The notes under the pieces are model-generated. The model ran no database searches and had not been told where the DNA came from. It worked only from the letters and a program-made list of their open reading frames with translations. This document shows, one piece after another, positions 4,811-62,174 of a DNA stretch of 64,000 bases (position 1 is the first letter of the stretch; every line of letters begins with the position of its first letter). This DNA is from Chryseobacterium soldanellicola (GTDB lineage Bacteria > Bacteroidota > Bacteroidia > Flavobacteriales > Weeksellaceae), in the NCBI RefSeq assembly GCF_900100115.1, contig NZ_FNKL01000002.1, forward strand, positions 310,001-374,000, written 5' to 3'. Both the position numbers and the translations under genes were made by a program.

Positions 4811-5782
4811 ATGAAAATATCTGTAATCGTTCCTGTGTATAACGCGGAAAAATATGTTTCTCAAGCTGTAGAATCGGCTTTGCAGTTTGAGGAAGTTTTT
4901 GAAGTCATTTTAATTGAGGACAAATCACCGGATAATGCGTTGCAGGTTTGTCAGGAATTAGCTCAAAAACATGACAGAGTAAAGCTTTTTCAACATCCGG
5001 ATAAAGGGAATCACGGGGCCGGCCCTACCAGAAATTTAGGACTAGAAAACGCAACCGGAGATTTTATTGCATTTTTGGACGCCGACGATTATTATCTTCC
5101 CAATCGTTTTGATGCCGAAAAAGAGCTTTTTAAAGATCCGAAAGTTGAAGGCGTTTACGGAGCTTTGGGCGTACATTATTATTCGGAGAAGGCAAAAGAA
5201 CAATATTACAGGGTTTTTGGAGACCGTTTAACCACAGTTCATAAAAGACATGATCCAAAAGATGTTTTTCCCGGTCAGATCAATATGAGAGGTAGCTTTG
5301 GGCTTTTCAGCATTGATACTTTAACGGTCCGAAGAGATGTTTTGGTTAAAAAGTTGAATCCTTTTTTTAAAACACATTTAAGACTTCATCAGGACACAGA
5401 ATTTTTGTTCCGCCTTTCCTATTATCTAGATCTTTATCCCGGAATTTTGGACAAAGCAGTTGCGGTAAGAGGTGTACACGAAGATAACCGGATTACAAAA
5501 GTCGATACAAAAAAAATAAACCCTGCTTCTACAAAAGTTTTGCTTTGGAGAGAGATTAATGCTTGGGCGGAAAATGAAAACAACCTTCCGAAAGATGTGA
5601 AAATTCATATCAGAAGAATGCACCGCAGTTTTGAGATTGCTCTGGCTCCAATTGCTAAAAAATGGGGAATGCTTATGAAATATGCGATCACGGACTATCC
5701 GAGTATTCGTTCTGGGGTGTATAATATTAATTTTAGAAAAAATATTTTTTTAGATGATTTTACTATTCGAAAAAAAGAATAA
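4811..5782 (+). CDS. Glycosyltransferase family 2 (third of three tandem paralogues)
   Basis: A 323-residue family 2 glycosyltransferase, closely related to the preceding gene over its whole length. It shows KISVIVPVYNAEKY at the N-terminus, DADD at 90-93, and HQDTEFLFRL in place of HEDTEFLLRL. The variable region lies in residues about 120-160, as expected if the copies differ in donor or acceptor choice. Its last 29 bases overlap the start of the next gene, a membrane protein, so the two are translationally coupled. The tandem set probably arose by gene duplication; whether each copy adds a different sugar is an inference. Confidence 0.9.
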   Translation: MKISVIVPVYNAEKYVSQAVESALQFEEVFEVILIEDKSPDNALQVCQELAQKHDRVKLFQHPDKGNHGAGPTRNLGLENATGDFIAFLDADDYYLPNRFDAEKELFKDPKVEGVYGALGVHYYSEKAKEQYYRVFGDRLTTVHKRHDPKDVFPGQINMRGSFGLFSIDTLTVRRDVLVKKLNPFFKTHLRLHQDTEFLFRLSYYLDLYPGILDKAVAVRGVHEDNRITKVDTKKINPASTKVLLWREINAWAENENNLPKDVKIHIRRMHRSFEIALAPIAKKWGMLMKYAITDYPSIRSGVYNINFRKNIFLDDFTIRKKE

Positions 5783-7079
5783 CATTTTAGATTCTTTTGT
5801 CATTGCCGGAGTAATCATATTCTTCAGCATTAATATTTTATTTTCTTCAGGACAAATTCGTCCTGATAGTATACAATACTTCCTTCAAGCTCAAGATTTT
5901 TGGAATTATAAAGTAAATTTTCCGTTAGGATATTCATTTTACATAAAAATTTTCAGTTTAATAACCTCAAACTATTTTATTGCATCTAAGCTCATAAATA
6001 TTCTTTCTTACTTAACGGTCATTTTTTTTTCATATAAAAAAAAGTTCTTCTTCCCTCAGACTATTTTAATTTTTTCTTTTTATCCTTTTGTCAATTTCTA
6101 TTTTCTTTCACTTTCGGAACCCCTCTTTTATTTATTCAATTATCTGATTATTTATGTCATCTACAAAATCATTGAAAAAGGTTTTAGTACAAAGTATACA
6201 TTTTCATTAGGAGCATTATTTTTCTTTCTGATTTCAGTGAGGTTTTCAGGACTGTTTATATTCTTCACAGCCATTTTGTTCCTAGGGTTTATAACTTATA
6301 AAAAAAAATATTCTTTAAAATCCTTTTTTACAGTTTTCACCATTTCATCTATTGGAGTTTTCTCCTATTTAATTATCAACTATTGCTACTGTGGATTTAT
6401 TTTAGGGCAGAGAAAACATCTGAAGCTAATTAACGCATCTGGATCTGGTATAGAATTCACCTCAAAGTTAGCACTTTCTACATTTAAACATTTTAGCTTC
6501 TTGAATATTTTTATAAGCAAAGGTATTATTAGCAGAATCTCATTTTTGAATGTTTGGATCAGCGCCTCAATTCTGATTATTAGCTTTGTAATTGTTTGGA
6601 AAAAAAGGAAAAAACTAAATTATTTTAATTATTATTTGCTTTTTTCACTCTTAGGAATTACAGCTAGTCTTGTCTATAGTTTTTATACCACAAAAATAGA
6701 TGACAACATCCGCATTAAAAGTAATGTATACTTATATCTATTATTTTTTTTATCTCTGAACATTTCAAAAAACGCAGTCAACTACTGTAAAATATTCTTA
6801 ATTATAGCTTTATATATTAACATTTTTACTGTTGTTGAATATTCTAAATCGATATTTTATCATATCAAAAAATATGAAGTTCTTATTTCTAATTCTCATG
6901 ATAAAACGATAGAAATCTTATACGAAGATTTAAACGACAATACAATAAAAAGTCATGCTCAAATCTTATTTTTTAAAACAATTTTAATCGACAAAGGGTA
7001 TAAAATTTATGAGGGGGAAAAAAAACCGAATCCAAAAGTTTCAAAATACCATATAAAAGCATCTGATATAATTGAATAA
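5754..7079 (+). CDS. Multi-spanning membrane protein, probable GT-C glycosyltransferase
   Basis: A 441-residue protein made mostly of hydrophobic segments, about 10-11 predicted membrane helices. The first loop after helix 1 carries RPDSIQYFLQAQDFW followed by PLGYSFYIK. An acidic residue in this first periplasmic loop with a nearby Y/F-rich stretch is what GT39, PIG-V and related GT-C glycosyltransferases show, so it may transfer a sugar from a polyprenyl phosphate on the outer face of the inner membrane. An ATG at 5754 was chosen because it overlaps the upstream GT2 by 29 bases in an otherwise tight operon. The gene looks even richer in A and T than its neighbours, which could be recent acquisition or simply the hydrophobic codon content. 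A polymerase or ligase role is not excluded. Confidence 0.7.
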   Translation: MILLFEKKNNILDSFVIAGVIIFFSINILFSSGQIRPDSIQYFLQAQDFWNYKVNFPLGYSFYIKIFSLITSNYFIASKLINILSYLTVIFFSYKKKFFFPQTILIFSFYPFVNFYFLSLSEPLFYLFNYLIIYVIYKIIEKGFSTKYTFSLGALFFFLISVRFSGLFIFFTAILFLGFITYKKKYSLKSFFTVFTISSIGVFSYLIINYCYCGFILGQRKHLKLINASGSGIEFTSKLALSTFKHFSFLNIFISKGIISRISFLNVWISASILIISFVIVWKKRKKLNYFNYYLLFSLLGITASLVYSFYTTKIDDNIRIKSNVYLYLLFFLSLNISKNAVNYCKIFLIIALYINIFTVVEYSKSIFYHIKKYEVLISNSHDKTIEILYEDLNDNTIKSHAQILFFKTILIDKGYKIYEGEKKPNPKVSKYHIKASDIIE

Positions 7080-7121
7080 AAAGCCTCCACTGTTTTTTAA
7101 ACCGTTTTTGACTCTGATAAT

Positions 7122-8150
7122 TTATCTTAATTTAATCTTTTTTAAATAATCTCTCAAAGGTTTTTCTATAAACTCGTAGAACAGTCCTGAGAAGATAATC
7201 AAAATGATCAGATAAATCCCAAATATTACATCGCTGTCTTTCATCTGAAAATTATTCCATAAAACCGATCTTAAAATATAAAGTATCGGAATATGCATGA
7301 TATAAATGGCATAGCTTATTTCTCCAAGATATTCCAAAGGCTTTATTGAAAATATTTTTGTCAGCCATCCATTATTGTACGAAATCAAAACAATTAACGG
7401 AATAAAAAGCAACGCCATCAAGCCATTATGAAAGAAAACCGGAATGCATATTAGTGATAATAAAATCGATATAAAAATTAAAAATATGGGTATATCGTAA
7501 TTTTTTTGCCTGAAATTTTTAATAAAATAAAGTCCGGCAAGATTTCCTACTAAAAATTCATTGATATGCAAAAGCGGAAAATACGCTATAAACTCATGAC
7601 TTTGCGTATGTGGCCCTTCATAAGACGTCGAATTGATGTATACATTGGAGAAAATCTGTGTGATAATCCAAATAATAATTCCAATGACCCAAATGCTTTT
7701 GTTCTGTTTTGAATAAAAATAATTATACAAAAACGGAAAAACCAAGTAAAAAAGAAACTCCACGGAAATAGACCATCCGGGAAAATTCAGGACCATTGCT
7801 TCACCCGGAATCCAGCTCTGGAAACCAAAAAGGTATAAAAATAATTTATAAAAACTAAAATTGGCAAATCTTGTCGTAAGATACAGCAGCAAGCCAATGA
7901 TATACAACGGGTAGATCCTGGCAAATCTGTTTTTATAATAATCTAAATAATCAATTTTATCCTTTTTATGATACGCAACAATCATAATAAACCCGGAAAG
8001 TATAAAAAAGTAGCTTACCCCGACATTAGCCCGCAGGAAAATATCAGAGATATATTTAGTTTGATATAAAAATAAATCTTTATTAAAATGAGAAATTACA
8101 ATGGCAATAGCCGCAATAAATCTTGTAAATGTAATCTGACTAATTTTCAC
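7122..8150 (-). CDS. Acyltransferase family 3 (OafA/YrhL-like) membrane protein
   Basis: A 342-residue membrane acyltransferase of the kind that O-acetylates or O-acylates surface polysaccharides. Near the N-terminus FTRFIAAIAIVISHF carries the family's conserved His at residue 21, followed by a motif of the type SGFIM and the arginine-rich KNRFARIYPLY, both characteristic of this family. About ten membrane segments fill the rest. The start codon is GTG at 8150; an in-frame TGA lies three codons upstream, so no longer start is possible. It is transcribed toward the preceding forward operon and lies 29 bp downstream of the methyltransferase gene on the same strand, so the two may form a transcript. 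The acyl group and target sugar are unknown. Confidence 0.9.
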   Translation of the reverse strand: MKISQITFTRFIAAIAIVISHFNKDLFLYQTKYISDIFLRANVGVSYFFILSGFIMIVAYHKKDKIDYLDYYKNRFARIYPLYIIGLLLYLTTRFANFSFYKLFLYLFGFQSWIPGEAMVLNFPGWSISVEFLFYLVFPFLYNYFYSKQNKSIWVIGIIIWIITQIFSNVYINSTSYEGPHTQSHEFIAYFPLLHINEFLVGNLAGLYFIKNFRQKNYDIPIFLIFISILLSLICIPVFFHNGLMALLFIPLIVLISYNNGWLTKIFSIKPLEYLGEISYAIYIMHIPILYILRSVLWNNFQMKDSDVIFGIYLIILIIFSGLFYEFIEKPLRDYLKKIKLR

Positions 8151-8179
8151 TAAAATTCAACATTACATTTACAAAATTA

Positions 8180-8950
8180 TTATTTTACGAAAACACCGAT
8201 GTATTTACCTTCGTATTCTACAACGGTAGTTTCAATATTATTTTTTTCACAGAAATCCTGATAGGCAGAATTGTCACCGATATCGTCACTTATGAAAACC
8301 CCGCCTTTTTTCATTCGCTTATACACTTCCTCATACGCCCACATTCTGCCATTGTAGCTTTTATCTGAGTCGTAATGAAGGACATCAAATGTAGAATTTT
8401 CGGCAAAGATTTTAGGCAACGATTCTTTATCTGCAAAACGGAATAATTTCCAGAATTTTTTAAGATTTTCAGGCACTACATATCCTACATACTGATCGCC
8501 GTCCTGCGCCAGATAAGGCATGTCTGAACTGTACAGGGTTCCGTTTCTTTTTTCCAAAGAAAGCAAAGCTGCCAGAGAAGACCATCCATACGCCACACCT
8601 GTTTCGATAACATGCTGTGCATTTGTGAATTCGCAAGCATAATAGATCAATTCAAGAGCTCCGGGGCCGCCCATTTTAATAGGACATTCTTTTTCTTTTT
8701 GCTCAGAATTTTTTAAAATTTCCTGATACTGACTTCTAAAAGGTGCGATATCAATTCCAAAAAGCCGGGAAACCGCTTCTTGCTGGGAAACCGCTTTTGA
8801 TGCCGCCCAAGAATTTGTCTTTTCCTTTCCTTTAAAGGCATTGCCTCTATTGACCGTATTTTTAATAATTTTTCTTCCCAATTCAGGGTAAAGATCCGGT
8901 CTTTTAAGATATGCGACAAATGTTTTGAGAACTCTTACTATTTCACTCAC
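8180..8950 (-). CDS. Class I SAM-dependent methyltransferase
   Basis: A soluble 256-residue protein with a Rossmann methyltransferase pattern: motif I appears as HVIETGVAYGWSSLAAL, the acidic residue after strand 2 as LYSSDMPYL, and later strand 4 as VLHYDSDKSY and GGVFISDDIG. Members near glycan genes often methylate sugars or amino sugars. The frame is open seven codons farther to a TTG at 8971, but a TATTTTTG -7 box (8969-8976, minus strand) overlaps that codon, so GTG at 8950, giving a start V(M)SEIVRVLK, is preferred. It is divergent from the next GT2 gene and upstream of the acyltransferase on the same strand. Substrate is unknown. Confidence 0.8.
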   Translation of the reverse strand: MSEIVRVLKTFVAYLKRPDLYPELGRKIIKNTVNRGNAFKGKEKTNSWAASKAVSQQEAVSRLFGIDIAPFRSQYQEILKNSEQKEKECPIKMGGPGALELIYYACEFTNAQHVIETGVAYGWSSLAALLSLEKRNGTLYSSDMPYLAQDGDQYVGYVVPENLKKFWKLFRFADKESLPKIFAENSTFDVLHYDSDKSYNGRMWAYEEVYKRMKKGGVFISDDIGDNSAYQDFCEKNNIETTVVEYEGKYIGVFVK

Positions 8951-8968
8951 TGTGTTAAATTTAGGACA

Positions 8969-9015
8969 CAAAAATAAAGATTTTTCTCTAACTTTTTCAG
9001 ATATAATTATATTTG
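8969..9015. promoter_or_regulatory. Divergent promoter pair, methyltransferase / GT2
   Basis: TATTTTTG on the minus strand (8969-8976) faces the methyltransferase, and TATATTTG on the plus strand (9008-9015) faces the GT2 at 9040. Both match the Bacteroidota -7 element TAnnTTTG. No good -33 TTG was found at the usual 17-23 bp spacing for either. Confidence 0.5.
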
Positions 9016-9039
9016 TAAAAATTTATTAACACAAACTGC

Positions 9040-9879
9040 ATGAAATTTTCAATTCTTATTGCCAATTACAATAATGGAAAGTTCTTTAAAGACTGCTATG
9101 ACTCCATTATTTCTCAGGAATATAAAGACTGGGAAGTCGTAATCATCGACGACCGTTCTACCGATGACTCTGTTGAAATTATTAACAAAATAATAGGAAC
9201 AGACCCAAGATTCAAATTATATGAAAACGATGCCAATTATGGCGTAGGAGTTACCAAATCCGAGCTTATAGAAAGGTCTACAGGTGATATTTGCGGCTAT
9301 CTTGATCCTGATGATGTCATAAAGCCTAAAGCCTTAAAAAGCGCTGTTGAAGTCTTAGAAAAGAAAAAAGATGTTGTTCTTACCTATTCCAGGCTCGCAA
9401 AATGTGATGAAAACCTGAATATTTTAAAAGAATTTAAATCTGCAATGCAAGTACCGAACGGGCAAAAATATTTTTTTAACTTTCCGATTCAGATTGCCCC
9501 TTTCGTTTCTTTCCGAAGAGATGTTTATATGAAAACCTCCAAAATAAACCCTGAGCTGAAAATTGCCGAAGATCAGGACTTATATTATAAAATGTATGAA
9601 GTCGGCAAGGTAGAATTTATCAATCAGACCGATTATTTATACAGAGCCCACATTGGCGGGATTTCCCAGAATCACAACAAGCAAAAATCGTATGCTTATT
9701 ATGCACAGGCAATCTGGGAAGCCATGCAGCGCAGAAATTTAAAAGAAATCCACGGAAGGCCCATCCCTCCAAGCTATTGCGATCCTCAGGAAATTTTTGA
9801 CCTGCTGGAATATCAAAATAAAATGCCTTTTAGGATTAAAAAACAAATTACACTCAGATTACAAAAACTTTTTGGATAA
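9040..9879 (+). CDS. Glycosyltransferase family 2
   Basis: A 279-residue GT-A glycosyltransferase, distinct from the three tandem copies. It begins MKFSILIANYNNGKF, carries DDRSTDDS after the third strand, and has the metal motif as DPDD at residues 89-92 in GYLDPDDVIKPKAL. The acceptor half has AEDQDLYYKM, matching the ED(x)D region of the family. A TATATTTG box lies 24 bp upstream. Its stop codon overlaps the start of the following GT4 gene by one base (TAATG), so the two are coupled. It presumably works in assembly of the same glycan; sugar specificity is unknown. Confidence 0.9.
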   Translation: MKFSILIANYNNGKFFKDCYDSIISQEYKDWEVVIIDDRSTDDSVEIINKIIGTDPRFKLYENDANYGVGVTKSELIERSTGDICGYLDPDDVIKPKALKSAVEVLEKKKDVVLTYSRLAKCDENLNILKEFKSAMQVPNGQKYFFNFPIQIAPFVSFRRDVYMKTSKINPELKIAEDQDLYYKMYEVGKVEFINQTDYLYRAHIGGISQNHNKQKSYAYYAQAIWEAMQRRNLKEIHGRPIPPSYCDPQEIFDLLEYQNKMPFRIKKQITLRLQKLFG

Positions 9880-54416: not shown

Positions 54417-54750
54417 AAAGCCTTTACTATTAAATATTAAAGCATTCTTTACACACTTGTCTTTCTCCTGTTATTTTATAATTAAATAAAAGCTGTCTGT
54501 TATTATCTCACAACTTAAGGAATTAAATTATAAAAAAAATAGCACTGGAAAAATAAAAAATTTTATCATTTCTTATTTTAATTAAAAATAGATCTCTGGC
54601 ATTCAAAATATTACGAATAAATTCATGAAAATTGAAAACTAGAAATATAAATTGAAAATTCAGAGAAAAAAATTCTTATTAAATTTTTACTTTTAAAACA
54701 ATTCAGAGGCTTTCGCACTCATTTTCAGCCTGTAATAATTGAAAACTTCG
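54417..54750. other. AT-rich intergenic region without recognised features
   Basis: About 390 bp separate the CDF gene from the DinB-family gene. It is highly AT-rich with no coding frame of normal codon use, no strong stem-loop and no clear repeat. The promoter of the DinB-family gene lies at its right end. Confidence 0.5.
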
Positions 54751-54779
54751 TTGAATTATTATAAAATTTCGTTTCTTTG
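54751..54779 (+). promoter_or_regulatory. Promoter of the DinB-family gene, TTG-N18-TTTCTTTG
   Basis: TTG at 54751-54753 and TTTCTTTG at 54772-54779 are 18 bp apart. The -7 element has one mismatch to TAnnTTTG. It ends 24 bp before the ATG at 54804. Confidence 0.5.
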
Positions 54780-54803
54780 TCCGCGAATTTAAAATCACAA
54801 ATA

Positions 54804-55304
54804 ATGACAATGAATCAAGCGCTTATTAGCGAATTACAGATGGAGGCTGCCAGCACCTTTAAAATATTGGAAAGAGTACCGGCAGATAAATTTGACTGGG
54901 CACCTCACGAAAAATCAATGAACCTGTGCAGATTATCAACGCACATAGCAGATCTGCCTAACTGGGCAGAAAGGATATTCAAGCTGGATGAAGTAGACCT
55001 TGCGGTTACGAAATATCAGCCGCCAACACAGGCAACCACCACAGAAGAATTGCTGGATATTCATAAAAAAGCCGTTGAAAATTGTGTAAGCCTGCTTAAA
55101 GAAACCTCAGATGCAAAATTAATGGAAATTTGGACCCTGAGAACCGGCGATCAGATAATGTTGCAATTGCCGAGAGTGGCAGTATTGCGAAGTATGTGTT
55201 TCAGCCATCTTTATCACCATCGCGGACAGTTAAGCGTGTTTTTACGTTTGCTGGATGTAAAGATACCAGGCATGTACGGGCCAAGTGCTGATGAATTAAT
55301 TTAA
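54804..55304 (+). CDS. DinB-family putative metal-dependent protein
   Basis: A 166-residue four-helix-bundle protein of the DinB/YfiT superfamily. The three His expected to bind a metal are present: STHIADLPNW and the pair in FSHLYHHRGQL. Such proteins act as thiol-S-transferases with bacillithiol or similar or have unknown roles. The frame is open to a TTG at 54777 that lies in the -7 box region, so ATG 54804 is preferred (54810 is another choice). A strong terminator follows. Confidence 0.88.
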   Translation: MTMNQALISELQMEAASTFKILERVPADKFDWAPHEKSMNLCRLSTHIADLPNWAERIFKLDEVDLAVTKYQPPTQATTTEELLDIHKKAVENCVSLLKETSDAKLMEIWTLRTGDQIMLQLPRVAVLRSMCFSHLYHHRGQLSVFLRLLDVKIPGMYGPSADELI

Positions 55305-55325
55305 AAAAAGTAGATCATTTTCAAG

Positions 55326-55351
55326 ACCGGCAGATTATTTTGCCGGTTTTT
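55326..55351 (+). terminator. Terminator after the DinB-family gene
   Basis: ACCGGCA (55326-55332) pairs with TGCCGGT (55341-55347), followed by T. Confidence 0.8.
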
Positions 55352-55438
55352 ATTATAAAATAATGTGATGATAAGTTTTATTTCAAAATTAAATGAATGC
55401 TTTATAAAAATCATAAGACCAAAAATCTATTTGGATAA

Positions 55439-55876
55439 TTATCCCTTTTTCTCGCTTATTTGCTTTCTATAATAAAACATCGGAATGATAAGAAGTAAAA
55501 TCAAAGGCTGAATCACAAACCTTCTCATATAAAAAGAAAAAAGATATCCGATCTCAAATCTGTTGTAAATACAATACAGGTAAATCGGAAATGTGATGAA
55601 AAAAATTATCGCAATTAATAATGCTCCCTGAATGGTCCATTCTTTATTTTTAAACAAAAAATGTATAATCAGACAGGAAAAAATCAGGTTTAATATAAAT
55701 CTGAAAATATGCCCAATAATTAACCTCCCCCACTCAAAAGAAGGAAAGGCCAGGCTTTTATCAGCCTCATGGAAATAATTCAGAAAAGGATCATAGAAAA
55801 TGCTGTCTTCAAGCGCTCTCACACTGATAAGCCCAACAACTCCTGCCATGACCAGAAACCAACTAAGAATCTTCAT
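55439..55876 (-). CDS. Exosortase F-associated membrane protein
   Basis: A 145-residue membrane protein with about four helices (WFLVMAGVVGLISVRA, FRFILNLIFSCLIIHFL, GALLIAIIFFITFPIY and PLILLLIIPMFYY). Its size, helices and tight position right after an XrtF-type exosortase match the protein always found next to exosortase F in Flavobacteria. It overlaps the xrtF stop by 14 bases, so both are made together. No enzymatic motif is seen; it could be a partner, chaperone or target-handling protein. This assignment rests on context and family memory. Confidence 0.75.
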   Translation of the reverse strand: MKILSWFLVMAGVVGLISVRALEDSIFYDPFLNYFHEADKSLAFPSFEWGRLIIGHIFRFILNLIFSCLIIHFLFKNKEWTIQGALLIAIIFFITFPIYLYCIYNRFEIGYLFSFYMRRFVIQPLILLLIIPMFYYRKQISEKKG

Positions 55877-56393
55877 TTTTTAATGCAAAAAATTTAATCC
55901 AGATAAGCCAAAGCAAGACAACACAACCATAAATAACCGCCGGAAAAATATAATCATGAGATATTTTACCGTATTGCTTATGATCCGTCATCACAATATT
56001 TAAGCCGATAATCCTCACCAGATTCATAATATAAAGCAAAATAAGGCCGATCAAAACAAAAGCAAATGTTTTAACACCTTTATAAAAGGCAAAAACAAAA
56101 GAGACAAAAAGAATCATCACCGAGATGGCATTACAACCTTCTACCATTCTCGTTGCATAATCACTTTTTACGTAAAACCAGACTTGCTCCTTAGGAATAT
56201 CATTATAAAGCTGCGTCGGATATCCTGCTGAGTTTTGAAAATACCTCACCTGCTCAGCAATTATCCTCGAAAAAGGATCTAAACCACCTGCCTTAAAGCT
56301 ATTTAGGTAAAATTGATACGCAAAAAGCAGCACCAGATAAATGATGATGAATCGCAGTAAAATTCCTAAAACAGGTTTAAAATCCTTTAACAT
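55863..56393 (-). CDS. xrtF: Exosortase family protein XrtF
   Basis: A 176-residue membrane protein with the exosortase/archaeosortase pattern. The Cys-Arg-His triad is present: Cys87 in MVEGCNAISVMI, Arg127 in MNLVRIIGLNIV and His146 in KISHDYIFPAVI. These enzymes cleave and re-attach surface proteins with a C-terminal sorting signal, but the signal for XrtF has not been defined. An extension to TTG 56462 is rejected; ATG 56393 (MLKDFKPV) lies 4 bp after a TATCTTTG box. It is divergent from amgK and overlaps the partner gene by 14 bases. No obvious sorting target was found in this window. Confidence 0.85.
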   Translation of the reverse strand: MLKDFKPVLGILLRFIIIYLVLLFAYQFYLNSFKAGGLDPFSRIIAEQVRYFQNSAGYPTQLYNDIPKEQVWFYVKSDYATRMVEGCNAISVMILFVSFVFAFYKGVKTFAFVLIGLILLYIMNLVRIIGLNIVMTDHKQYGKISHDYIFPAVIYGCVVLLWLIWIKFFALKNEDS

Positions 56394-56397
56394 ACTG

Positions 56398-56433
56398 CAA
56401 AGATAGAAATTAGCACGTAAATTACTATATTTG
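56398..56433. promoter_or_regulatory. Divergent promoter pair, xrtF / amgK
   Basis: TATCTTTG on the minus strand (56398-56405) ends 4 bp before the xrtF ATG, and TATATTTG on the plus strand (56426-56433) ends 9 bp before the amgK ATG. Both match TAnnTTTG. Confidence 0.55.
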
Positions 56434-56442
56434 TTTTCTACT

Positions 56443-57462
56443 ATGAATGCTGAAAACGCCAACCTATTTTTTGAAAAATATTCAGGGAAAACAACTTCTG
56501 AGTTTATTACTTTAGCTCAAAGCGGCTCCGCGAGAGTAAATTTTTTAGCAAAAACAGATAAAAAGAAGTATATTATTACTTACAATGAAAATATTCCGGA
56601 GAACGAAAGTTTTTTTTATTTCTCAGGTATTTTTACTCAGCTAAAGCTCAATACACCAACAATATTCACGATTTCCGAGGATAGAAAGCTATATGTGCAG
56701 GAATTTTTAGGTGAAAATACTCTCTCAGAAATTATTTCTAAAGAAAGTTTATCCGATAAAGTGAAATTTTTGGTGAAACAGACTCTGGAAAAACTTTATC
56801 AGCTTCAAATTAAAACTCAGGGCAAAATAGATTTCGCAAAAACTTTTGAATACGAAAGTTATGACGAGCTTCCCGTAATGCACGATTTATATTATTTTAA
56901 AAGTTTCGTTGCTGATGTTCTGGAGCTGGAATATCATAAATCGACTTTGCTGAAAGAATTTAAAAAAATCGCTAACCTCATCGAAAATCTCGAGCCAAAA
57001 GGATTAATGATCCGTGATTTTCAGGCCAGAAATATCATGGTAAATGAAAATAATGAAGTTGCGTTCATCGATTATCAGTCTGCGATGAAAGGCCCTTTGA
57101 TATATGATGTGATTTCGTTTTTATTTCAGGCTAAAGCCAATTTTCCTGAAGATTTTAAAAATGAAATGCTGGAATTTTACATTCAGCAATTTAAAAATGA
57201 AGAAACTCAACTTCAACTAAAAAATTCGGTTAAGCCCATTCAGATGATGCGGTTTTTGCAGGTTTTGGGAGCTTACGGATTCAGAGGATTGATTCAAAAG
57301 AAGCAACATTTTATCGCAAGCATCGAAAAAGGAATTGAAAATATCACAGAATTTTCTCAATCCTGGGAACATATGAAAAATTATCCCGAGCTTGAAAAAG
57401 TAATACAGCAATTAAGTTTAGAGAAAACAAAATTGAAAATTGGAGAGATTTTACAAAGTTAA
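56443..57462 (+). CDS. amgK: Phosphotransferase, probable anomeric MurNAc/GlcNAc kinase AmgK
   Basis: A 339-residue aminoglycoside-phosphotransferase-fold kinase. The catalytic loop is LMIRDFQARNIMV with Asp192 and Asn197, and the metal-binding Asp210 lies in FIDYQSAMKGPLIYDVISFL; this DYQxAxxGPxxYDxxSxL stretch is typical of AmgK, which phosphorylates MurNAc or GlcNAc at C1 in cell-wall recycling. The neighbour 58191 is a MurU-like nucleotidyltransferase, the known next enzyme, which supports the call. The start is ATG 56443; a TTG at 56431 lies inside the -7 box and is rejected. Product would be MurNAc-1-phosphate. Divergent from xrtF. Confidence 0.85.
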   Translation: MNAENANLFFEKYSGKTTSEFITLAQSGSARVNFLAKTDKKKYIITYNENIPENESFFYFSGIFTQLKLNTPTIFTISEDRKLYVQEFLGENTLSEIISKESLSDKVKFLVKQTLEKLYQLQIKTQGKIDFAKTFEYESYDELPVMHDLYYFKSFVADVLELEYHKSTLLKEFKKIANLIENLEPKGLMIRDFQARNIMVNENNEVAFIDYQSAMKGPLIYDVISFLFQAKANFPEDFKNEMLEFYIQQFKNEETQLQLKNSVKPIQMMRFLQVLGAYGFRGLIQKKQHFIASIEKGIENITEFSQSWEHMKNYPELEKVIQQLSLEKTKLKIGEILQS

Positions 57463-57465
57463 AGT

Positions 57466-57606
57466 CTTCGACAAGCTAAGACTGACACCGTTAAAAATTA
57501 CGCTCATTTAACAGTTAGTATTAGCCATGTCATCCTGAGCGGAGTCGAAGGATCTCTTCAAAATAAAAAAATAATTTTAGATTCCTAGGGAATGACAAAA
57601 GTGACT
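57466..57606. repeat. Dispersed-type intergenic repeat
   Basis: CTTCGAC (57466-57472) and GTCGAAG (57544-57550) are inverted, and GTCAT (57529-57533) and ATGAC (57592-57596) are inverted around them. Strings such as TCATCCTGAGCGGAGTCGAA and GGGAATGACAAAAGT are familiar from intergenic repeats of many bacteria. It separates amgK from the RapZ-like gene. Only one copy was noted here. Confidence 0.5.
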
Positions 57607-57698
57607 GAAAATATAAAAAAATAAATGATAAACAATCATTGATAAGCGATTTCCAAAACCAATGATCATTTATCAATAATCAATTATAATATAACAAA

Positions 57699-58106
57699 AT
57701 GCTACACATCGACATACACAGTTTTTCGTACAAAAAAGGAGGAATTCCCAAAGATGATTCAGGAAACGGAGGTGGTTTTACCTTCGACTGCCGAGGAATT
57801 TTAAACCCCGGAAGAGTTGAAGAATATAAAATCCAGACCGGAAACGACATCGGCGTCCAGGAATACCTCGAAACAAAAACCGAAATGCCAAAATTTTTAG
57901 AATTAATAAAAAATCTTATTTCTATCAATATTGACAATTATCTGGAAAGAGGTTTTGAGAATCTGCAGATCAATTTCGGGTGTACGGGCGGACAGCACAG
58001 ATCGGTATATTCAGCGATAAAAATTGCCCGTTTTATTGAAGAAAAATATGGTGAAAAAGTTGAGATCAGCCTTCACCACGACGAACAGCATCAACTGAAT
58101 TCATAA
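57699..58106 (+). CDS. Free-standing RapZ C-terminal-domain protein
   Basis: A 135-residue protein equal to the C-terminal half of RapZ only. It begins LHIDIHSFSYKKGGIP, matching the SFxxKxGxP start of that domain, has FTFDCRGILNPGR (FDxRxLPNP in RapZ), and near the end GCTGGQHRSV (residues 94-103), the hallmark phosphate-binding segment. The N-terminal P-loop domain of full RapZ is absent. In E. coli this half binds glucosamine-6-phosphate and the small RNA GlmZ. Placed between amgK and a murU-like gene, it may sense an amino-sugar phosphate. An enzymatic role is possible. Confidence 0.88.
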   Translation: MLHIDIHSFSYKKGGIPKDDSGNGGGFTFDCRGILNPGRVEEYKIQTGNDIGVQEYLETKTEMPKFLELIKNLISINIDNYLERGFENLQINFGCTGGQHRSVYSAIKIARFIEEKYGEKVEISLHHDEQHQLNS

Positions 58107-58108
58107 AA

Positions 58109-58193
58109 GATAAGTGATAAATTATAAATAATCTATTCAGAACATTTATTTTTTCATCAATTATCATTCATCACTTATCAATTATAAATAATG
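58109..58193. repeat. Inverted AT-rich repeat before the murU-like gene
   Basis: GATAAGTGAT (58109-58118) and ATCACTTATC (58170-58179) are perfect inverted copies, each followed by AATTATAAATAAT. It lies between the RapZ-like gene and murU. A looser relative, with TTATAAATGAT, lies at about 52300-52330. Confidence 0.55.
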
Positions 58194-58904
58194 AAGGCTC
58201 TAATTTTCGCAGCAGGAAAAGGCACAAGGCTTAAACCTTTTACAGATCATCATCCGAAGGCTTTGGCTAAGGTAAATGGCATTCCGCTTTTGGAAAGAAA
58301 TATCAATTATCTTAAAAGTTTCGGAATAAAGGATTTTGTCATCAATATCCATCATTTTGGAAATCAAATTGTTGATTTTTTAAAGGAAAACGGTAATTTC
58401 AACTGCAATATTGAAATTTCTGACGAAACCCAGGAACTGCTGGAAACCGGCGGCGGCTTGATTTTTGCCAGAAAATTCCTCGATCATGGCGAAGATTTTC
58501 TGATCATGAATGCAGATATTCTCACCAATATCAATATTACCGATCTGGTTGAATATCATAAAAAGATAAAAGATTTTGCTACATTAGCCGTTTCGGATAG
58601 AGAAAGCTCAAGAAAACTACTTTTTAATGATGATTTGGTTTTAAGAGGCTGGCTGAATGTACAGACGGGTGAGCAGAGATTGGCTGAGTTTAACAAAGGG
58701 TTTAAAGCATTAGCTTTCAGTGGTGTGCACTGCATTAATCCTTCTATTTTTGAAAAAATAAAAAGAAAAGGCAAATTTTCTGTTATGGAAGAATATCTGG
58801 ATCTTATGCAAACCGAACACATTCATGGTTTTGTACATGACAGCATCCTGATAGACGTCGGCAGACCCGAATCTGTAATAGAAGCCGAAAAATATTTTAA
58901 ATAA
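58191..58904 (+). CDS. murU: Nucleotidyltransferase, probable MurU (MurNAc-1-phosphate uridylyltransferase)
   Basis: A 237-residue sugar-phosphate nucleotidyltransferase. The donor loop is MKALIFAAGKGTRLKPFT with HHPKALAKV (GxGTRLxPxT, then PK). The acidic metal site is suggested by FLIMNADILTNINI. With a kinase of AmgK type two genes upstream, the likely reaction is MurNAc-1-phosphate plus UTP to UDP-MurNAc, which bypasses fosfomycin-sensitive MurA. RmlA/GlmU-like sugars remain possible because the fold is shared. It is separated from the next gene by only 6 bp. Confidence 0.8.
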   Translation: MKALIFAAGKGTRLKPFTDHHPKALAKVNGIPLLERNINYLKSFGIKDFVINIHHFGNQIVDFLKENGNFNCNIEISDETQELLETGGGLIFARKFLDHGEDFLIMNADILTNINITDLVEYHKKIKDFATLAVSDRESSRKLLFNDDLVLRGWLNVQTGEQRLAEFNKGFKALAFSGVHCINPSIFEKIKRKGKFSVMEEYLDLMQTEHIHGFVHDSILIDVGRPESVIEAEKYFK

Positions 58905-58910
58905 TCTGCA

Positions 58911-59660
58911 ATGGAAATTGATGGAAGAGACGAAAGTCTGGTAAATCCGGAATTAGACAGTAATGAAACAAAGCTGCACAACAGTTTAAGACAAAAAAAC
59001 TGGGACGAGACCATTACCAAAGACAGCTGGATGGTTTTTAAGGTAATGGCTGAATTTGTAGACGGTTATGAAAAACTGGCTAAAATCGGCCCGTGCGTTT
59101 CTATTTTCGGATCGGCAAGACTGAAGCCTGAGAGTAAATATTACAATATGGCTGTGGAAATTGCCGAAAAAATCACTAAAATAGGCTTCGGAATCATTAC
59201 CGGCGGCGGTCCCGGAATCATGGAAGCAGGAAATAAAGGGGCTTTTAATGCTAAAGGAAAATCCATCGGGTTGAATATCGATTTGCCGTTTGAACAGCAC
59301 TTTAATCCTTATATCAACAGATCTTATTCAATGAATTTTGATTATTTCTTTGTAAGAAAAGTGATGTTTGTAAAATATTCTCAGGGATTCATTGTCATGC
59401 CCGGTGGTTTTGGCACTCTGGACGAGCTTACGGAAGCCATCACTTTGATTCAGACCAATAAAATCGGAAGGTTCCCTATAGTTCTGGTTGGCTCTGAATT
59501 TTGGAGCGGCTTACTCGATTGGTTTAAAGCTACTTTGTTAAAAGAGGACATGATCGCAGAAAATGATTTGGACCTTTATCGTGTGGTAGACAGCGCTGAC
59601 GAAGCAGTTGCACACATTAAAGCATTCTACGATAAGTATTCTGTGAACGTAAACTTCTAA
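58911..59660 (+). CDS. LOG-family (TIGR00730) Rossmann-fold protein
   Basis: A 249-residue protein of the LOG family. The nucleotide-binding motifs are FGIITGGGPGIMEAGNKGA and MPGGFGTLDELTEAI; both together identify the family, members of which hydrolyse cytokinin riboside monophosphates or nucleoside monophosphates, releasing the base. An N-terminal extension of about 60 residues precedes the core. In bacteria many are of unknown role. It starts 6 bp after murU and may be in its transcript. The putative link to cell-wall recycling is only by position. Confidence 0.9.
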   Translation: MEIDGRDESLVNPELDSNETKLHNSLRQKNWDETITKDSWMVFKVMAEFVDGYEKLAKIGPCVSIFGSARLKPESKYYNMAVEIAEKITKIGFGIITGGGPGIMEAGNKGAFNAKGKSIGLNIDLPFEQHFNPYINRSYSMNFDYFFVRKVMFVKYSQGFIVMPGGFGTLDELTEAITLIQTNKIGRFPIVLVGSEFWSGLLDWFKATLLKEDMIAENDLDLYRVVDSADEAVAHIKAFYDKYSVNVNF

Positions 59661-59719
59661 TTGGCATATTATTTGTGAACTATAAATAACAATCTATGAT
59701 TGTAAATCTATTAATTAAG

Positions 59720-60190
59720 ATGAAAAAACTTTTATATTTATCCGGAATTTTAACATTTTTTGTGTTAATGAGTTTTGTTTATGCAGACTTTTTCTCTTCA
59801 ATGACAAAAGTGGACTATATCGATGGAAGTAAGACGTTGAAGTTTACCACAAAGATGAATACTAATCATATTTCAGACGCCATCAAGATAAACCCCAGCA
59901 CAGCAGGATTCGAAGCAGAGGTAAAAAAGTATGTAAATAACAACTTTGATGTGTACGTTAATGGTTCTCCCAAAACAATTACCTTTACAGGTAGCCAGGT
60001 AAGCGGGGAAACAGTTTGGGTATATTTTGAGACCGGAGGAATTCCGGAAATCAGTACCTTAAAAATAAAGAATACGATACTTTTAAGCGCTTTTCCTAAG
60101 CAGATCAACCTTGTGAATATTGCTTACAAAGGAAGCCAGAAAACAATGAATTTCCAGCGGGGAAAAGAAGTGAATGAAGTTTCTTTCTAA
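59720..60190 (+). CDS. DUF6702-like secreted protein
   Basis: A 156-residue protein beginning with MKKLLYLSGILTFFVLMSF, a signal peptide, then YADFFSSMTKVDYIDGSKTL and TGGIPEISTLKIKNTILLSAFPKQINLVNI, which match the DUF6702 pattern of Bacteroidota. It ends in VNEVSF with the usual terminal Phe. It is predicted to be beta-rich and periplasmic. The upstream ATG at 59696 would add eight residues before the signal peptide; the internal ATG at 59720 is preferred. Function unknown. A terminator follows. Confidence 0.78.
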   Translation: MKKLLYLSGILTFFVLMSFVYADFFSSMTKVDYIDGSKTLKFTTKMNTNHISDAIKINPSTAGFEAEVKKYVNNNFDVYVNGSPKTITFTGSQVSGETVWVYFETGGIPEISTLKIKNTILLSAFPKQINLVNIAYKGSQKTMNFQRGKEVNEVSF

Positions 60191-60204
60191 AGAATAAAAT
60201 TAAC

Positions 60205-60232
60205 AAAACCACTGCTTTTGCGGTGGTTTTTT
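60205..60232 (+). terminator. Terminator after the DUF6702 gene
   Basis: AAAACCAC (60205-60212) pairs with GTGGTTTT (60223-60230), with inner G-C pairs and a T-run. Because it also has an A-run on the left, it could serve the convergent gene on the minus strand. Confidence 0.8.
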
Positions 60233-60236
60233 GTTA

Positions 60237-60695
60237 TTAATCACTTTTAACGTTCATTCTTACTTCATATTCAATATCGCTTTTGTCGTATTGAAAAGGT
60301 ATGTTAGGCAATGACCAACTCGCTTCATACATCCCATATTCCGGATAGATATGATATTTTCTCAAAGAATCTGTAATATCAAATTTATCTAAAAGTAAAA
60401 CCCCATCTCTAATATCTAATGAATCAAAAGCAACAAGATAACGTCTGCCATTGATGAACTCTCCATCTTCATTTGATTCTATAAAGTTTCCTTTGTTGGA
60501 AATAAATTTAAAATCATTTCCAGATCGTCGTTTTTCAGTATAATAACCCGACGTAACTGTTCCTACTCCATATCTAATATTTTTAAGCATAGTCACACTT
60601 GGGTTACCGGCATATACAACAAAAATAATTTTATAAATTACTAAAAAGGCAATGCCTATGACAATTGTCCAAAAAACGGTTTTACCTTCTTCCAT
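60237..60695 (-). CDS. Membrane-anchored protein of unknown function
   Basis: A 152-residue protein with one N-terminal membrane helix (residues about 8-28, TIVIGIAFLVIYKIIFVVYA) and no lipobox. The rest is soluble, with YGVGTVTSGYYTEKRRSGN and YLVAFDSLDIRDGVLLLDKF. It was not recognised as any named family. A TAATTTTG box (60714-60721) lies 18 bp upstream, abutting the terminator of the DUF5689 gene. Convergent with the DUF6702 gene. Confidence 0.65.
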   Translation of the reverse strand: MEEGKTVFWTIVIGIAFLVIYKIIFVVYAGNPSVTMLKNIRYGVGTVTSGYYTEKRRSGNDFKFISNKGNFIESNEDGEFINGRRYLVAFDSLDIRDGVLLLDKFDITDSLRKYHIYPEYGMYEASWSLPNIPFQYDKSDIEYEVRMNVKSD

Positions 60696-60713
60696 TTTTT
60701 ATACTTTTAAATA

Positions 60714-60721
60714 CAAAATTA
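60714..60721 (-). promoter_or_regulatory. -7 promoter element TAATTTTG
   Basis: Matches TAnnTTTG on the minus strand, 18 bp before the ATG at 60695. It shares one base with the A-run of the adjoining terminator at 60721-60749. Confidence 0.5.
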
Positions 60722-60749
60722 AAAAAAAGCTGTCTAATTAAAGACAGCT
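60721..60749 (-). terminator. Terminator after the DUF5689 gene
   Basis: AGCTGTCT (60728-60735) pairs with AGACAGCT (60742-60749), preceded on the plus strand by eight A, which is a T-run on the minus strand. Confidence 0.8.
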
Positions 60750-60782
60750 CTATGTTATATGTTATTTATAGTCAAGTATAAA

Positions 60783-62174
60783 TTACTGAACCTGAATATT
60801 ATCTAACTGAATTGTAGTTGTAACACCACTTCCGTTTCCTGAATATTCAAATACTACAAAACCATTCCCTGTTAATCCGGCAGGAATATTGTAAGTTCCG
60901 GCAGGTGCTAAAGTTCCGTATCCGCTCACAGGCGTTGTAGGAATTGTAAATGCCGAAGTAATATCCGTTTTGTTGGCTGCTGTAATGTCTCCAAGCGGAG
61001 TATAGTTTGTAGTTGTATAAACTTTTAGAGCGTTACCGTTCCAGAAACCAACATTCACATCAAATTTCAAGGTATTTGCTGCTGTAAAATCAACAGGTAC
61101 AATGAAATAAGTAACATACGGACCTGAACCGGAATTCGCTCCTAATTGAATGTATTTGTTGTTGCTGAAAGTCTTCAGCTGCCAGTATCTGTTTCCTAAA
61201 AGAGCATCGTTAACATATTTAGGATAAACTTCCAGGTTGGTCGGAGTTAATGAATAGCTCTCAAAATTTTCAAGGAAAGAACCTGAATAAGTGATGGCTG
61301 TACCTCCTTTTGGCGGTGTTGCATCTACTCTGTTTCCTTTAAAATTAACGTCATTTGTGCTTCTGATCAACATTTGCCAAGTTGTTGTATAACGGCTTAC
61401 TACAAAAGTAATATCTCCGTTTCCTGTTGGCAATAAGCTAGAACCTTGTGCGAAGAAACCTGAATTTCTAAGGGTCACTGAATTTCCTGAAGCATCTTCT
61501 AAAGTTCTGTCTGTATCAACTCCCGCTCCGCCAACATAATCGATGTAAGCTTTATTAACAGGGAAAATATCTCCGATAGAGAACTGTGTGTTAGGAACTT
61601 TCACCAATGTATTGATGTATTGTTCAGCCTTAGCTGCAGCAAGATTGGGCAATTCTACCGGCTTAATGTTTACAATTTCGAGTCCGTTTCCGTTACAAAC
61701 CCCTGACATATATCTGCTTAATAAAGAAGCCGGGATTCTTCCGATTGCAAAAGTAGGATCTACAGAACCTATTTTCACAGCACCTCTGTCGAGACCTAGC
61801 CTTAAACCTTTAGCATTAATTCTGATATGCGCTCCAACAGGGAAATCTGCATAGTTGCTTGCTCTGTCAACTTCGATCTGTAAACCTGCAGTAGGATTTT
61901 CAGGCTTATCCTGGAAAGAAATTGTTTTATAGAAATTTCCGTTTTCGTCAGAAGAAACTACATACCCGTCAATGATCTGGTCAGTAGTAATCAAAAGATA
62001 TCCTGTAGCCGGAGCCTGAGCTTTAAAATCAGCCAAAGACATCGTTGGAGCCGGGAATTTGTTTTCGCACTTGATTGGCGGTGTATCCCATTCATCTTTT
62101 TGTACGCAAGAGGTAATAGAAATTGCTGCAAATGCAACTCCTGCTACTAAACTTAAGTATTTTTTTATTGTCAT
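60783..62174 (-). CDS. DUF5689-containing lipoprotein
   Basis: A 463-residue secreted lipoprotein. Signal peptide with lipobox SITSC at about residue 23 (Cys), followed by VQKDEWDTPP, so it is exported to the surface. Residues about 40-280 match the DUF5689 pattern, for example TDQIIDGYVVSSDENGNFYK and AGLQIEVDRASNYADFPVG. The C-terminal 180 residues look like a carbohydrate-binding-type beta-sandwich with an aromatic LENFESYSLTPTNLEVYPK. It lies 38 bp after the TonB receptor gene on the same strand, a pair often found in Bacteroidota, reminiscent of a SusCD-like uptake set. Ligand unknown. Confidence 0.88.
   Translation of the reverse strand: MTIKKYLSLVAGVAFAAISITSCVQKDEWDTPPIKCENKFPAPTMSLADFKAQAPATGYLLITTDQIIDGYVVSSDENGNFYKTISFQDKPENPTAGLQIEVDRASNYADFPVGAHIRINAKGLRLGLDRGAVKIGSVDPTFAIGRIPASLLSRYMSGVCNGNGLEIVNIKPVELPNLAAAKAEQYINTLVKVPNTQFSIGDIFPVNKAYIDYVGGAGVDTDRTLEDASGNSVTLRNSGFFAQGSSLLPTGNGDITFVVSRYTTTWQMLIRSTNDVNFKGNRVDATPPKGGTAITYSGSFLENFESYSLTPTNLEVYPKYVNDALLGNRYWQLKTFSNNKYIQLGANSGSGPYVTYFIVPVDFTAANTLKFDVNVGFWNGNALKVYTTTNYTPLGDITAANKTDITSAFTIPTTPVSGYGTLAPAGTYNIPAGLTGNGFVVFEYSGNGSGVTTTIQLDNIQVQ

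Follow-up and report, generated by a model that had tools for sequence, protein, structure and literature searches.

Why should the C-terminal domain (CTD) of RapZ, a model RNA regulator, stand on its own between two genes that resemble those of N-acetylmuramic acid (MurNAc) salvage in Chryseobacterium soldanellicola? The locus in question lies within a stretch of 64,000 nucleotides (contig NZ_FNKL01000002.1, positions 310,001 to 374,000 of the forward strand; hereafter the window), where an AmgK-like kinase, a free RapZ CTD of 135 amino acids (aa) and a MurU-like enzyme are encoded in a row. This arrangement had been described in an earlier note made from the letters of the window, and the open reading frames and profile matches agree with it, all three genes being on the plus strand. 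Our analyses place the 135 aa protein in a distinct clade of RapZ CTDs and make it marginally probable that it is a cysteine-dependent MurNAc-6-phosphate phosphatase feeding the AmgK-like kinase. The features of primary interest are as follows.

56443..57462, plus strand: AmgK-like anomeric sugar kinase (aminoglycoside phosphotransferase, APH, fold), 339 aa from its ATG; PF01636 42 bits; in the kinase set of 36/36 CTD genomes
57699..58106, plus strand: free-standing RapZ CTD, 135 aa; predicted Cys-X5-Arg sugar-phosphate phosphatase
57765..57794, plus strand: NGGG insert (residues 23-26) and FTFDCR (27-32), including Asp30 and Arg32; the insert is typical of AmgK-linked CTDs
57981..58004, plus strand: Cys-X5-Arg-Ser phosphate loop, codons Cys95-Ser102 (CTGGQHRS), read from the sequence; CTGG[QR]HRS in 31/31 phylum CTDs
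58191..58904, plus strand: MurU-like sugar-1-phosphate uridylyltransferase, 237 aa; best-scoring family MurU NF045761

Linkage and fusion of the domain with AmgK-like kinases

The CTD protein scores 101 bits with PF22740 (cut-off 27), the single match to this family in the whole genome, and it has both the Pfam match and the fold of a RapZ CTD; it lacks the N-terminal P-loop kinase-like domain and reaches 83 bits with the RapZ model NF003828 (cut-off 244). Its named database matches are nearly all from Chryseobacterium among the 120 matches listed, and the homologues listed bear the labels "RNase adapter RapZ", "ATP-binding protein", "UPF0042" and "RapZ C-terminal domain-containing protein". 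The kinase frame begins at the ATG at 56443 (an alternative TTG start at 56431 is possible), its stop ends at 57462, and its top NCBIfam model is AmgK NF045759, at 47 bits below the cut-off of 550. The MurU-like protein reaches 145 bits with NF045761, below the cut-off of 250 yet its best family, and its matches among structures include 4y7t, a nucleotidyltransferase (E 6e-23), and 8hhd/9smv, whose sequence the depositors call MurU (E 2e-22). Because both enzymes fall short of the curated cut-offs for AmgK and MurU, the names AmgK-like and MurU-like are given by similarity only.

The earlier note had paired the CTD with AmgK and MurU and had called for a count of how often such genes adjoin; the pairing is borne out, and more strongly than was claimed. 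In a sample of 296 genomes evenly drawn from the GTDB phylum of the window, the CTD (RapZ-C) was found in 36 genomes, and an AmgK-like kinase was detected by a kinase profile in all 36 of them as against 64 of the 260 others; within this sample the AmgK-linked CTD clade is found only with an AmgK-like kinase. Kinase and CTD are fused in 26 of the 36 genomes, giving proteins of 475-513 aa with the kinase part first and RapZ-C second. The remaining ten have a free-standing CTD, which adjoins the kinase gene in eight and is unlinked in two (G180 and G271), where both genes are kept. A MurU-like gene lies near the CTD in 28 of the 36 genomes (23 of 31 within 1.5 kb, and five more adjacent by coordinates); of the eight other genomes, six carry a MurU-family match at another place in the genome (E 1e-36 or lower), and the weaker matches in G180 (6e-31) and G271 (7e-28) are equivocal. 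Wider neighbourhoods, covering 20 of the 36 CTD genomes and the window, include MurU in 16 of 21 cases, and besides kinase/CTD and MurU no gene family was common to more than four of these 21. The association of kinase, CTD and MurU, linked across many families, is not due to chance.

The unlinked kinase genes of G271 (locus L137, 7573-8622) and G180 (L138, 8214-9188) adjoin an alpha/beta hydrolase gene and a TIGR01777 epimerase-type gene, not MurU. In four genomes (G004, G078, G240 and G243) MurU-family matches lie within open frames of 838-922 aa, which suggests that a sugar nucleotidyltransferase forms part of a large protein of several domains.

The fusion extends beyond the sample. A search with a Ferruginibacter fusion as query (at least 8000 candidates) found both Pfam domains in 119 among the 120 matches listed, and the best 80 of 586 confirmed loci include named genomes of Bacteroides, Phocaeicola, Parabacteroides, Hoylesella, Carboxylicivirga and Chitinophagaceae as well as records of Ignavibacteria, Calditrichia, Delongbacteria, Elusimicrobia and Acidobacteriaceae. 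The placement of an APH kinase beside a GlmU-like nucleotidyltransferase resembles AmgK and MurU of Pseudomonas and Tannerella forsythia (available parts of PMC5371407 and PMC7670621), and the T. forsythia enzymes, a Bacteroidota pair, are reported to work in E. coli (PMC13041923). Unlike these systems, the window proteins score far under the NCBIfam cut-offs and the CTD forms a second domain of the kinase in the 26 genomes with fusions.

Clade and pocket residues of the AmgK-linked domain

The relationship of these domains to true RapZ was examined in a tree of 53 rows (52 different), viz. 46 AmgK-linked CTDs (41 fused, 5 free) and 7 true RapZ sequences (6 acidobacterial, and E. coli). Among 129 Acidobacteriota genomes the CTD occurs in 109, mostly as full-length RapZ by score and frame length; ten acidobacterial sequences were compared, six being RapZ without a kinase part and four being fusions with the kinase (G297, G381, G392 and G429). 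The kinase part was confirmed in all 15 fusions of the tree that come from outside the sample, and it is absent from the six acidobacterial RapZ. The 46 AmgK-linked CTDs are split from the seven true RapZ with support of 100/99. Free forms are nested among fused ones (three label changes, at least two of them forced by supported branches), hence the CTD gene of the window is likely a piece that split off from a fusion. In a genome of the same class (G230, locus L008), the fusion CTD groups at 100/99 with those of gut Bacteroides, Phocaeicola, Parabacteroides and Hoylesella, a grouping that suggests transfer.

Nine residues (E. coli numbers Asp182, Arg184, Cys247, Thr248, Gly249, Gly250, His252, Arg253 and Ser254) are invariant in 53/53 rows, among them the Asp and Arg that correspond to Asp30 and Arg32 of the window protein. 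The Cys-X5-Arg-Ser loop is kept in 31/31 phylum PF22740 loci, and these loci alone give an unbiased count, the 53 tree rows having been chosen by the loop motif, though no sought row was lost; a C-X5-R-S/T loop is also present in the 15 other fusion rows, 11 of which were found via patterns including such motifs. In a structure model of the window CTD (predicted local distance difference test score 95.5) strand 88-95 leads into the loop and helix 101-120 follows it, with Cys95 ending the strand and Arg101 starting the helix. Directly observed are the gene linkage and fusion, the patterns of co-occurrence, the existence of a separate clade, and the conservation of the loop together with its placement between strand and helix in this confident model. 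The modelled setting would liken the CTD to Cys-dependent phosphatases of the protein tyrosine phosphatase (PTP) type, which carry such a loop between strand and helix. A phosphatase-like pocket has already been proposed for E. coli RapZ: a PTP-like loop and hydrolysis of glucosamine-6-phosphate (GlcN6P) are suggested in the available part of Khan and Gorke (2020, PMC7199280). Sulfate and malonate occupy the phosphate loop of E. coli RapZ (PMC5737377), and its H190A change abolishes function (PMC9841335).

In comparison with the E. coli RapZ CTD (PDB 5o5s, 5o5o, 8b0i), the window protein lacks the N-terminal P-loop domain and is linked to AmgK and MurU, and its clade is distinguished by several changes. 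His190 is replaced by Gly in 46/46 AmgK-linked rows, Asn236 by Arg in 43/46 and Arg238 by an aromatic residue in 46/46, and there is an insert with GGG (NGGG or HGGG in 45/46), which is absent from the six acidobacterial RapZ and that of E. coli. Among the RNA-contact sites, the window protein keeps Lys170 and Arg184, has Lys in place of Arg196, and departs at Lys194 (Glu), Arg211 (Thr), Arg238 (Phe), Lys251 (Gln), Lys270 (Val) and residues 281-283 (QLN). Stand-alone forms lack the basic RNA tail.

These residues bear upon the parallel with GlmZ RNA that the earlier note had drawn from E. coli, and it carries over poorly. It is highly improbable that the free CTD acts as RapZ does on GlmZ, binding a small RNA to direct its breakdown or to control how the cluster is translated: in addition to the replacement of His190 and the missing tail, the mean net charge of the five free CTDs is -2.6, as against +5 for E. 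coli and a mean of +6.2 for the six acidobacterial RapZ (+1.7 for the 26 phylum fusions and +1.3 for the 15 other fusions), no Rfam family reached its cut-off within 54500-61000, the part of the genome scanned, and true RapZ is retained beside the kinase-CTD fusion in four acidobacterial genomes. The RNA-adaptor explanation was therefore set aside. Even less probable is a structural passenger, i.e. a CTD that merely dimerises or stabilises the kinase and whose pocket is a relic; the E. coli RapZ CTD does dimerise (PMC5737377), but relic pockets decay, whereas this pocket is unvarying in the compared rows, and stand-alone copies persist.

The AnmK-MurQ gap and a candidate phosphatase step

The product that AnmK makes from anhydro-MurNAc is MurNAc-6-phosphate, and MurQ is an etherase. 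AnmK was found in 208 of the 296 phylum genomes, counting G216, whose match spans 76 model positions only and was scored as present (in G303, which is G216 again, this fragment is found at the end of a contig). MurQ is absent from 85 of the 296, absence being defined as no match better than E 1e-20, and seven genomes between this value and the curated cut-off were scored as having MurQ. The CTD is present in 13/13 genomes with AnmK and without MurQ and in 13 of the 195 that have both (Fisher 7e-14 over genomes); hence every AnmK genome of the sample has MurQ, the CTD or both. When the 48 families are compared (sorted by hand), 8 have the CTD, and these 8 include every one of the six that lack MurQ, f4 of the six being mixed (chance 2e-6). 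Outside the sample, where the genomes were all selected for the fusion, G298 and G301 likewise combine AnmK and the fusion with the absence of MurQ.

Haloacid dehalogenase (HAD) phosphatases such as MupP use aspartate and Mg2+; the CTD, in contrast, belongs to an unrelated protein family, has a predicted cysteine mechanism and is itself no HAD protein (Pfam). The MupP model exceeds its cut-off in none of the 36 CTD genomes (best 101 bits against 359), a model that is also below cut-off in 14/14 control genomes, no Pseudomonas among them, and in the window genome four HAD_2 proteins reach at most 38 bits against the same cut-off. The step proposed for the CTD, between AnmK and AmgK, is like that of MupP, the HAD MurNAc-6-phosphate phosphatase of the AnmK-MupP-AmgK-MurU route established for Pseudomonas, where Borisova and colleagues reached MupP by the same reasoning, viz. 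AmgK present and MurQ absent (available part of PMC5371407).

The best reading of these results is that the CTD has an enzymatic function and does not act solely as a sensor. In the proposed route, AnmK would convert anhydro-MurNAc to MurNAc-6-phosphate; Cys95 would then attack the C6 phosphate, gripped by Arg101 and by main-chain atoms of residues 96-100; the MurNAc released would be handed to the fused or neighbouring AmgK-like kinase, yielding MurNAc-1-phosphate; and MurU would form the uridine diphosphate (UDP) derivative UDP-MurNAc, with MurA bypassed. Catalysis by the CTD, MurNAc-6-phosphate as its substrate and the handover to the kinase are what we infer, and we would guess that the lactyl carboxylate of MurNAc is bound by Arg84, which lies close to the pocket and takes the place of E. 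coli Asn236.

Several observations weigh against this route. AnmK is missing from ten of the 36 CTD genomes, MurQ also from seven of these, and the whole motif is intact in all ten; four named gut Bacteroidales have the fusion and no AnmK, three of the four with MurQ over the cut-off. MurQ is present in 16/36 CTD genomes, unlike the profile behind the discovery of MupP, and the idea we had entertained, that CTD and MurQ strictly exclude each other, is thereby refuted in favour of a one-way rule, that in the sample AnmK without MurQ implies the CTD. Lastly, 12 of a further set of 16 fusion-bearing genomes (G303, identical to sample G216, among the 16) have MurQ over the cut-off, with G300 just under it; it is absent from G298, G301 and G304. 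It is because these AnmK-less and MurQ-positive CTD or fusion genomes do not fit that our confidence in a MurNAc-6-phosphate phosphatase stays near one half. In the AnmK-less genomes, either another kinase would supply MurNAc-6-phosphate, a MurK-type kinase being described in Tannerella (available part of PMC7670621), or the substrate range would be wider.

The same ten genomes bear upon two other explanations. We consider it unlikely that the CTD is a sensor, which would bind GlcN6P, MurNAc-6-phosphate or N-acetylglucosamine-6-phosphate (GlcNAc-6-phosphate) without turnover and tune the kinase allosterically so that recycling tracks precursor supply. A phosphatase for the AnmK product would be idle in the AnmK-less genomes, fusion to a kinase is a common arrangement for a regulatory domain, and the E. 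coli CTD binds GlcN6P with a KD of 10 nM by surface plasmon resonance (PMC7073468). A sensor, however, leaves unexplained the CTD in every AnmK-positive, MurQ-negative genome and the replacement of MupP there, and it is at odds with the unvarying Cys, Asp and Arg of the pocket in 53 rows, with the Gly at the pocket position of His190, and with the separation of CTD and kinase in G180 and G271. Of the sensing or processing of an amino-sugar phosphate that the earlier note had put forward, the handling of a sugar phosphate is upheld by the conserved phosphate pocket and the distribution, and a pure sensor has become less likely since the loop is kept in all 31 phylum loci and the CTD occurs in all 13 AnmK genomes of the sample without MurQ, where a known MurNAc-6-phosphate phosphatase is missing.

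Rather more doubtful still is a phosphatase or other catalyst that works beside AmgK on a different sugar phosphate (GlcNAc-6-phosphate, GlcN6P, or the repair of wrongly made hexosamine 1-phosphates) and not on the AnmK product. The loop that stays intact without AnmK would accord with it, as would the acceptance of GlcNAc by AmgK (per the NCBIfam model name) and the E. coli CTD crystal with GlcN6P, which suggests conversion of GlcN6P (available part of PMC9841335). The pattern of AnmK without MurQ, however, indicates MurNAc-6-phosphate, and the clade has three substitutions relative to RapZ within or close to the pocket, as would be expected from a switch of ligand.

A further comparison is provided by kinases that occur without the CTD. 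The positives of the kinase profile are the 36 CTD genomes, G009 and 63 of the 64 genomes of one family, f17, to which 63 of the 64 kinase genomes without the CTD belong. Among the 100 kinase genomes, all 26 with AnmK have the CTD and the 64 without the CTD all lack AnmK, a relationship that is no longer significant (p 0.30) once family f17 is removed. The named matches of one f17 kinase, among the matches listed, are Chlorobium, Chlorobaculum and other Chlorobiaceae/Chlorobiales, and f17 most likely represents green sulfur bacteria. NamZ liberates MurNAc, and in one f17-type locus (L140 of G169, 5106-9710, minus strand) an AmgK-like kinase, a MurU-like enzyme with a left-handed beta-helix tail, a NamZ exo-muramidase and a sodium:solute symporter are clustered in what looks like an operon for the salvage of free MurNAc, by which route a phosphatase would not be needed there; this rests on the one green-sulfur cluster scanned, in which the adjacency of NamZ is suggestive only. 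NamZ was also tried as a marker dividing users of free MurNAc from those of MurNAc-6-phosphate and failed, being present in 286/296 genomes.

No report of an AmgK-RapZ link or fusion, or of a role in MurNAc-6-phosphate metabolism, was found in the literature searched, most subscription papers lying outside the search. A MurNAc-6-phosphate phosphatase of this kind would close the phosphatase gap of UDP-MurNAc salvage, both among the relatives of Chryseobacterium and further afield, and would do so with an enzyme from a family other than that of MupP; this salvage route is a source of intrinsic fosfomycin resistance in Pseudomonas. RapZ would gain an enzymatic ancestry, and the name "RNase adapter RapZ" would be corrected for several kinase-RapZC fusions and stand-alone domains in public databases. 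More tentatively, and with somewhat less than even confidence, we propose that RapZ-C is an ancient metal-independent Cys-X5-Arg phosphatase, that the clade bound to AmgK supplies the MurNAc-6-phosphate phosphatase missing from much of the Bacteroidota and from some other phyla, that AmgK-RapZC is a two-step "phosphate swap" enzyme (MurNAc-6-phosphate to MurNAc-1-phosphate), and that the RNA-adaptor role in E. coli is a later use of the same pocket.

Gaps, repeats and neighbouring genes of the cluster

Two further features occupy the spaces between the three genes.

57463..57698, plus strand: kinase-CTD gap, 236 base pairs (bp), holding the TCATCCTGAGCGGAGTCGAAGGATCT element (57530-57555) and an AT-rich repeat (57660-57689)
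58099..58189, plus strand: AT-rich inverted repeat that takes up the CTD-MurU gap, its 34-nucleotide arms being 79% complementary

Short repeats are thus found in each of the two gaps, viz. the TCATCCTGAGCGGAGTCGAAGGATCT element and AT-rich palindromic copies, and within the window both patterns occur here only; in a locus of the same genus (L031) the kinase-CTD gap is 42 bp, as against 236 bp in the window. Divergent from the kinase gene lie the genes for exosortase XrtF (TIGR04128, 213 bits) and its associated membrane protein (TIGR04127, 146 bits), at 55439-56462 on the minus strand. A gene for a LOG-type protein (TIGR00730; 58911-59660, plus strand) begins 6 bp past the MurU-like gene, and it is likewise next in L031.

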